Assembly: GCA_031276485.1 (NCBI GenBank) | Contig: JAISMY010000057.1 | Coordinates: 1 to 47,504 of the forward strand | Direction: 5' to 3' | Length of the DNA stretch: 47,504 nt | DNA from: Desulfovibrio sp. | Lineage (GTDB): Bacteria > Desulfobacterota > Desulfovibrionia > Desulfovibrionales > Desulfovibrionaceae | In this document: piece after piece, positions 45,210 through 47,504 of the stretch | Layout of the letters: each line of letters opens with the position of its first letter | Position numbering within the stretch: position 1 is the stretch's first letter | Translations under genes and position numbers: made by a program | Notes under the pieces: generated by a model | The model's database searches: none | Told to the model about the DNA's origin: nothing | The model's input: the letters and a program-made list of their open reading frames with translations, nothing else

Positions 45210-47504
45210 GTCGCTCCTCACGCAGGAGCGTGGATTGAAACATTCGGCGGCGCCTTTCAAGCGCGCCAGCGCAGCGTCGCTCCTCACGCAGGAGCGTGGA
45301 TTGAAACTGGTATTTTGGCCAGCCAGACGACATGGACAGCGGGTCGCTCCTCACGCAGGAGCGTGGATTGAAACGTTACCTCTCTGAGATTACTATTGTT
45401 TGCTTTTGTCGCTCCTCACGCAGGAGCGTGGATTGAAACCTTTGCCACATCCGCAAACCTGTATTTGGTCCACGTCGCTCCTCACGCAGGAGCGTGGATT
45501 GAAACGTTGTATACTCTGGCCCTTGTATCCGGATACACGGGTCGCTCCTCACGCAGGAGCGTGGATTGAAACATTGCGTTTGCGAAAATAATATGAGAAA
45601 AAAATTGTCGCTCCTCACGCAGGAGCGTGGATTGAAACAATGTACCTCCACGCCTGCGGTGCGACTGTCTCTCGTCGCTCCTCACGCAGGAGCGTGGATT
45701 GAAACGGTCGCGTATACGTATCAAGCGGCGCGGGGCCGTGGTCGCTCCTCACGCAGGAGCGTGGATTGAAACAAGGCCAAAACATATCAGATTCAAAAGA
45801 TGAGCGTCGCTCCTCACGCAGGAGCGTGGATTGAAACCTGATTTCGCCGAAAAGATCAAAAACCATCAATGTCGCTCCTCACGCAGGAGCGTGGATTGAA
45901 ACGCCCGGCATCTGGCCGAGCGGTACGGAGTGGCGGGTCGCTCCTCACGCAGGAGCGTGGATTGAAACCGGCCTACACTATAAAAAAGAAATAATAAAAA
46001 AGTCGCTCCTCACGCAGGAGCGTGGATTGAAACTTGCTTCTGCTCCGCCTCGGCCCGCTGCCGTGCGTCGCTCCTCACGCAGGAGCGTGGATTGAAACTG
46101 GTTGAGCGCGATGCAGGGTAAAACCTATGTGGTCGCTCCTCACGCAGGAGCGTGGATTGAAACTTTCCTCATGCCGTCAAAATCATAGGATTTAGTGTGT
46201 CGCTCCTCACGCAGGAGCGTGGATTGAAACTTCGTAGTTATCAATGCGTCGCCCTATCCATTGGTCGCTCCTCACGCAGGAGCGTGGATTGAAACAACCT
46301 GAACATTACTGACAGGCGTCACAAAGTGGGTCGCTCCTCACGCAGGAGCGTGGATTGAAACCTGTGCCACCACGCAATCCGCAACCCTGCGGCACGTCGC
46401 TCCTCACGCAGGAGCGTGGATTGAAACCTGTGCGGGATAAGCGCATAGCCGATGTCCCGTGTCGCTCCTCACGCAGGAGCGTGGATTGAAACTATTGTTT
46501 TCACAAAAGAACTAGATGCGTACCTGTGTCGCTCCTCACGCAGGAGCGTGGATTGAAACAGACACCGACGCCGCCGAGCATGCAGGAAGCGCGGTCGCTC
46601 CTCACGCAGGAGCGTGGATTGAAACTGTTCATCCGTGATGCCCGCAAGCCATGCCAGAGTCGCTCCTCACGCAGGAGCGTGGATTGAAACGTCTCCGGGC
46701 AGTCGCCCGCAAGGGCGTGGATTGTCGCTCCTCACGCAGGAGCGTGGATTGAAACTTCCCGGTCACGGCCTGCGATTGCAAACCTTGCCCGTCGCTCCTC
46801 ACGCAGGAGCGTGGATTGAAACTCCGCAGCCTGCGCCTGCGACAATGCGGCATTTGTCGCTCCTCACGCAGGAGCGTGGATTGAAACGTCTTCAACTATA
46901 CTCTTTGGAAATTTGAAGCTGTCGCTCCTCACGCAGGAGCGTGGATTGAAACATACCCCTCCTCAGCGCCGCGAATGATGACGGGTCGCTCCTCACGCAG
47001 GAGCGTGGATTGAAACTTAGGCAGCAGTACGGGCGACGAGGTATCGAGCGTCGCTCCTCACGCAGGAGCGTGGATTGAAACTCCGTATTCAAGACTACGC
47101 GCAACGGCGTATCAATGTCGCTCCTCACGCAGGAGCGTGGATTGAAACGCGCAATTCCTCCTTGCGTTTCGGCAATGCGGGGTCGCTCCTCACGCAGGAG
47201 CGTGGATTGAAACCCGAGCAGCCTCATAAGCGCCGCGCCGGCGGATGTCGCTCCTCACGCAGGAGCGTGGATTGAAACAGCCTCACGCAGGGATCGGTCA
47301 AGCGCGGCAGCGGTCGCTCCTCACGCAGGAGCGTGGATTGAAACGACATAGGAGCGCGCCCCGGCCCGTGGAATAATAAGTCGCTCCTCACGCAGGAGCG
47401 TGGATTGAAACTGTTGGTCAACCGTGCTTTAGGTCAGACATGACGCGTCGCTCCTCACGCAGGAGCGTGGATTGAAACGCCGTCAGAGAGGGAGGAAAGT
47501 TCCG
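45210..47504 (+). CRISPR. Type I-C CRISPR array, 35 repeats, open at the window end
   Basis: 35 copies of a 32-base repeat that begins GTCGCTCC and ends GTGGATTGAAAC; the first is 45210-45241 and the last complete one 47447-47478. By eye all copies are identical, including the last, so the array has not reached a degenerate end and probably continues past 47504. The inner CGCTCC / GGAGCG pair forms the hairpin cut by Cas5c. The 34 complete spacers are 32-35 bases, mostly 33-35, and all differ. Spacer 23 (46691-46723) carries a foreign repeat-like sequence. The uniform repeats and adjacent full cas set suggest an active, recently expanding locus. Confidence 0.98.
46691..46723 (+). repeat. Spacer 23 containing a foreign type I-C-like repeat segment
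   Basis: From 46702 the spacer reads GTCGCCC, a GCAA loop, GGGCG and then TGGATT, ending flush against the next true repeat. It has the start, palindrome and GCGTGGATT of type I-C repeats but a different and shorter stem-loop from the resident repeat. Confidence 0.7.

Follow-up and report, generated by a model that had tools for sequence, protein, structure and literature searches.

Results

The type I-C locus and its array

The stretch of Desulfovibrio DNA analysed here (47,504 nt, in the following called the window) contains a complete type I-C gene set in the order cas3-cas5d-cas8c-cas7-cas4-cas1-cas2, with a CRISPR array located 3' of it (Table 1). The resident repeat (GTCGCTCCTCACGCAGGAGCGTGGATTGAAAC) is perfect in all 35 copies from position 45210 to the contig end, and the commonest spacer length is 33 nt (15 of the 34 spacers). 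When all spacers were searched together, those other than spacer 23 gave no recognisable target and no convincing match was obtained, so that a PAM could not be read. Spacer 32 (47279-47312) was found to have 11 consecutive bases (CCTCACGCAGG) in common with the loop region of the resident repeat, a run that was reached by about 0.8% of shuffled spacer sets; no match to this spacer was detected in IMG/VR.

Table 1. Features of the type I-C locus and of spacer 23 (positions in the window)
Feature	Position	Strand	Basis
cas3	37057..39453	+	Pfam Cas3 domains
cas5d/cas5c, crRNA-processing subunit in type I-C	39619..40290	+	PF09704, 1.6e-40
cas8c (csd1)	40303..42066	+	PF09709, 1.4e-182
cas7 (csd2)	42069..42935	+	PF05107, 2.2e-105
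cas4	42957..43589	+	PF01930
cas1	43586..44605	+	PF01867
cas2	44727..45017	+	PF09827
Type I-C CRISPR array	45210..47504	+	35 identical 32-nt repeats, truncated by contig end (array parsing)
CRISPR spacer 23, 33 nt, probably from a phage crRNA-repeat mimic locus	46691..46723	+	Array parsing; 24-nt match to L001, 22-nt match to G013
PAM-proximal (seed) end of spacer 23, GTCTCCGGGCA, putative flank of the mimic in the donor	46691..46701	+	Differs from L001, G013 and G010
Predicted competing RNA hairpin CGGGC/GCCCG, precluding the mimic stem in the fold predicted for the precursor	46696..46709	+	
Repeat mimic GTCGCC-CGCAAG-GGCGTGGATT	46702..46723	+	Sequence; 0 in shuffles; alignment with phage mimics

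Spacer 23 contains a foreign repeat

Spacer 23 has a normal length and is flanked by intact identical repeats, as expected for a member of the array. Its last 22 bases (GTCGCCCGCAAGGGCGTGGATT) correspond to a short-hairpin repeat of type I-C that differs from the 35 resident copies. They are made up of GTCGCCC (46702-46708), GCAA (46709-46712), GGGCG (46713-46717) and TGGATT (46718-46723), in which CGCCC and GGGCG form a 5-bp stem around the GCAA loop and TGGATT opens the type I-C 5' handle. This mimic lacks the loop region of the resident repeat as well as the final GAAAC. The pattern GTCGCCN{2,8}GGCGTGGATT had a single match in the 47.5 kb window and none in 100 dinucleotide shuffles of it, and a looser form of the motif was not found in any of 102,000 shuffled spacers. 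The longest exact run common to spacer 23 and the resident repeat was 9 nt (GCGTGGATT). As about 14% of the shuffled spacer sets contained a run of this length, the significance of the motif rests on the whole of GTCGC, the stem and GCGTGGATT and not on the run itself.

The first-pass annotation had proposed that spacer 23 carries a foreign type I-C-like repeat cut from another CRISPR array. Its position and sequence were correct on re-reading, and the foreign nature of the repeat is largely borne out, since the same 22-mer was found only in phage DNA. Within IMG/VR it occurred in one contig (L001), and when 58 related genomes were searched with up to two mismatches only two others matched, both from congeners: Desulfovibrio sp. 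Nc350_bin1 (G013) and Desulfovibrio sp. OttesenSCG-928-A18 (G010).

Phage units carrying the mimic

In L001, a 72-kb contig, the unit is intergenic, between two genes, and consists of a sigma70-type promoter (TTGCAA-16-TATAAT) followed by a first mimic (GTCGCCGTTCTGGCGTGGATTGAAAC), a 23-nt linker that forms a GUUGGU/GCCGAC hairpin, a second mimic (GTCGCCCGCAAGGGCGTGGATTAAAAC) and a 10-bp terminator hairpin. Spacer 23 was identical to the second mimic over 24 contiguous nt. When a link of the L001 phage to Desulfovibrionaceae was sought through one of its proteins, 149 genomes gave no more than a single distant match, so that a host could not be assigned.

The G013 unit holds an exact copy of the 22-mer and a copy with one mismatch, 34 nt apart, together with a decayed third mimic. 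Its contig is of prophage type, with head, portal, tail and reverse-transcriptase genes. The linker forms a 9-bp hairpin resembling the one in L001 and is partly repeated 3' of the second mimic; based on this fold and partial repetition it would act as an RNA structure and not as a captured spacer, and it had no match in IMG/VR. Its promoter match is weak, and the unit also contains T-tailed hairpins. The unit lies directly 3' of a region (L046:10572-13536) in which a reverse-transcriptase gene stands beside a tail-protein gene, an arrangement that resembles a diversity-generating retroelement.

G010 contains one mimic with two mismatches to the 22-mer, on a prophage-type contig with DnaB, endolysin, terminase and portal genes. 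This unit contains a hairpin with a T run at its end, seen in the sequence and reproduced on folding; no consensus promoter was found in it. All three units combine repeat-like sequence of the host subtype with viral DNA and an intergenic position, as described for solitary repeat units (SRUs) and RNA anti-CRISPRs (Racrs). The G010 mimic is also solitary; L001 and G013 hold two mimics each and are thus not strictly so.

Search for the donor of the whole spacer

The motif had no match among known phage or plasmid records. The full 33-nt protospacer was absent from phages, plasmids, IMG/VR, GTDB genomes and the family, so that neither an exact donor nor a PAM could be assigned from these sets. 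The best match of spacer 23 to phage DNA covered 24 of the 33 nt, and a full-length protospacer with a PAM was not found. No source was found for the GTCTCCGGGCA flank (46691-46701). The genome of the host itself, which is 87% complete, contained no further copy of the 22-mer within three mismatches.

BLAST against public phage and plasmid records gave chance-level matches only. An origin from an ordinary phage gene, with a coincidental handle, had been named as the outcome that would overturn the foreign-repeat interpretation. It was looked for, and the matches obtained were weak, the best of them, in a human-gut phage, lying in a penicillin-binding-protein-like coding sequence with two mismatches, which was rejected. 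Ten viral contigs shared the left 16 nt of spacer 23; these were also rejected as chance matches, the sequence departing right after. Matches to the short pattern found elsewhere in the family, outside the genus, were not counted as mimics because the GAAAC handle was missing from the sequence shown.

Short-hairpin type I-C repeats in viruses and genomes

Pattern searching of IMG/VR, in two scans, yielded 45 distinct short-hairpin type I-C repeats that are solitary and 23-29 nt long; 32 of them were located outside predicted genes. Their inner stem pairs covary (CG, GC, TA, AT), i.e. the stems are compensated. Among 84,980 genomes the short form was found in only 12 stretches, nearly all of them single copies; one of them closes an array in Cohnella (L052).

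One viral genome of 57.7 kb (IMGVR_UViG_3300007351_000481; L024, L027, L030) carried three different short-hairpin type I-C units, each solitary, beginning GTCGCCTTTCGAGGCG, GTCGCCTTTATTGGCG and GTCGCCTCTATGGGCG, and three loci from a Desulforudis MAG (L050, L058, L060) go with them. In a Treponema MAG (L056, around position 2013, minus strand) a short-hairpin type I-C repeat is followed by a T-rich terminator and stands about 100 nt before regularly spaced GTGGATTGAAA repeats, where it is possibly a decoy or a regulator next to the array.

Dispersed mini-arrays in the genus

The genus also contains dispersed type I-C-like mini-arrays of one to three repeats (GTCGCCTCC..GGAGGCGTGGATTGAAAC) with linkers of about 34 nt. 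They are intergenic, near housekeeping-type genes, and are present also in genomes without a Cas5d match. Two were found in the genome studied here (L119, G000:C50:1286-1383, and L114, G000:C48:4619) and others in four congeners (L117, L126, L133, L135 and L142 in G013; L115, L134 and L136 in G002; L113 in G007; L131 in G001). At one orthologous locus a mini-array is inserted in both G000 and G013, with different linkers; the corresponding site is empty in a near-precise manner in G001 and, as judged from match spacing, appears empty in G002.

Predicted fold of the spacer 23 transcript

In the predicted fold of the repeat-spacer-repeat RNA, the CGGGC/GCCCG pairing had a probability of about 0.99 and the mimic stem about 0.001, values that serve only as a guide because this fold pairs repeat 23 with repeat 24 and not within each repeat. 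For spacer 23 in isolation, the free energy of the competing hairpin was -13.1 kcal/mol as compared to -9.8 kcal/mol for the mimic stem. The competing hairpin would thus hide the mimic stem, and the mis-cleavage of this transcript by Cas5c raised in the first-pass annotation, although possible, is disfavoured by the model.

Discussion

Based on these findings, we consider it probable that this gut-type Desulfovibrio acquired spacer 23 from a phage crRNA-repeat mimic locus of the SRU/Racr kind, and that the spacer provides a guide against what is likely a phage decoy. The first-pass annotation had instead regarded a competing CRISPR array as both donor and target. Such an origin, from a conventional array of another bacterium or of a plasmid whose repeats would then be attacked, is consistent with the way the mimic ends like a repeat, with the GAAAC handle next to it in the relatives, and with the short-hairpin repeat that closes at least one array, in Cohnella. 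However, no regular array with the 27-nt short repeat was found in the 84,980 genomes, where the short form is nearly always single, the arrays of congeners have repeats of 31-32 nt as compared to 26-27 nt for the mimics, and no plasmid matched. In addition, the phage units hold a single mimic repeat or a pair, with linkers that are structured, and resemble solitary repeat units. We therefore regard an array as an unlikely donor, and a phage crRNA mimic, i.e. an anti-CRISPR decoy, as the better reading.

The dispersed chromosomal mini-arrays would offer a source in self or sibling DNA instead of a phage, and elements of this kind do occur in the host genome and in congeners. Their repeats belong to another family, however (GTCGCCTCC..GGAGGC, 31-32 nt), and the 87% complete host genome has no match to the 22-mer within three mismatches besides the spacer, which makes this origin very improbable. 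Slippage can produce repeat-like sequence inside CRISPR arrays, and the mimic directly adjoins repeat 24, so that spacer 23 might be considered a degenerate, partly deleted repeat that resulted from rearrangement of the array. Against this, spacer 23 has exactly the modal length, all 35 repeats are perfect, and the GCAA loop with its CCC/GGG stem cannot be derived from the resident repeat and matches the phage units exactly; we give this explanation scarcely any weight. That an ordinary phage gene fragment resembles a repeat by chance is the least credible explanation, even though the spacers are GC-rich and runs of 9 nt in common with the repeat are not unusual, as the shuffles did not reproduce the full motif and exact 22-24-mers were found only in mimic units.

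In the proposed origin from a phage mimic locus, Cas4-Cas1-Cas2 would have sampled a phage whose mimic unit was a relative of the L001 and G013 ones, and the protospacer would have run from the GTCTCCGGGCA flank into the intergenic, non-coding mimic. Cascade loaded with spacer 23 would then bind the DNA of the mimic locus and recruit Cas3, whereby the host would target the very locus meant to disarm it. By homology to a tested Racr, the phage mimic RNA would serve as a decoy for Cas5c/Cascade in the way RacrIC1 does, and we infer such decoy activity for the phage units on this analogy. An attack on the host's own array is not expected under the rules for type I systems, because the seed end (GTCTCCGG) falls within the phage flank and the contiguous match to the resident repeat is limited to nine bases on the PAM-distal side. 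More tentatively, host CRISPR-Cas might be able to immunise against RNA anti-CRISPR loci, with a racr-type guide that has its seed in the phage flank and a transcript that folds away its mimic of the Cas5c site.

If this is true, spacer 23 documents a natural case in which a host turned the CRISPR decoy of a phage into a target, and acquisition can succeed against a phage that carries one. A guide containing a mimic must escape cutting in its middle and avoid targeting its own array, and both of these can be tested. The literature searched, which covered few subscription journals, contained no report of a spacer by which a host targets a Racr or SRU, or of another host counter-move.

RNA anti-CRISPRs were described in 2023. 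They are encoded by solitary repeat units, which are widespread in IMG/VR and in GTDB prophages, and RacrIC1 from a Bifidobacterium prophage was shown experimentally to inhibit type I-C interference (PMC10651486). The short-hairpin phage repeats resemble these published units. As with RacrIC1, the putative donor unit would be a phage-borne, intergenic, cas-less type I-C repeat mimic with a stem-loop and a 3' handle (TGGATTGAAAC). However, the object in the window is a host spacer against such a unit and not a Racr itself, and the nearest units (L001, G013), for which Racr activity is putative, hold two mimics with a structured linker. With two repeats around one linker and no cas genes, the L001 and G013 units are also similar to virus-borne mini-CRISPR arrays (PMC6858448). 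They differ from them in that the mimics, at 26-27 nt, are not identical to the 31-32-nt repeats of the host and that both linkers, the L001 one being 23 nt long, fold into hairpins; host-identical repeats in combination with a spacer that matches a related virus were not found in the phage units. In length, position and array, spacer 23 is comparable to ordinary phage-directed type I-C spacers, from which it is set apart by the apparent overlap of its protospacer with a repeat mimic, whereby target and guide scaffold have sequence in common.
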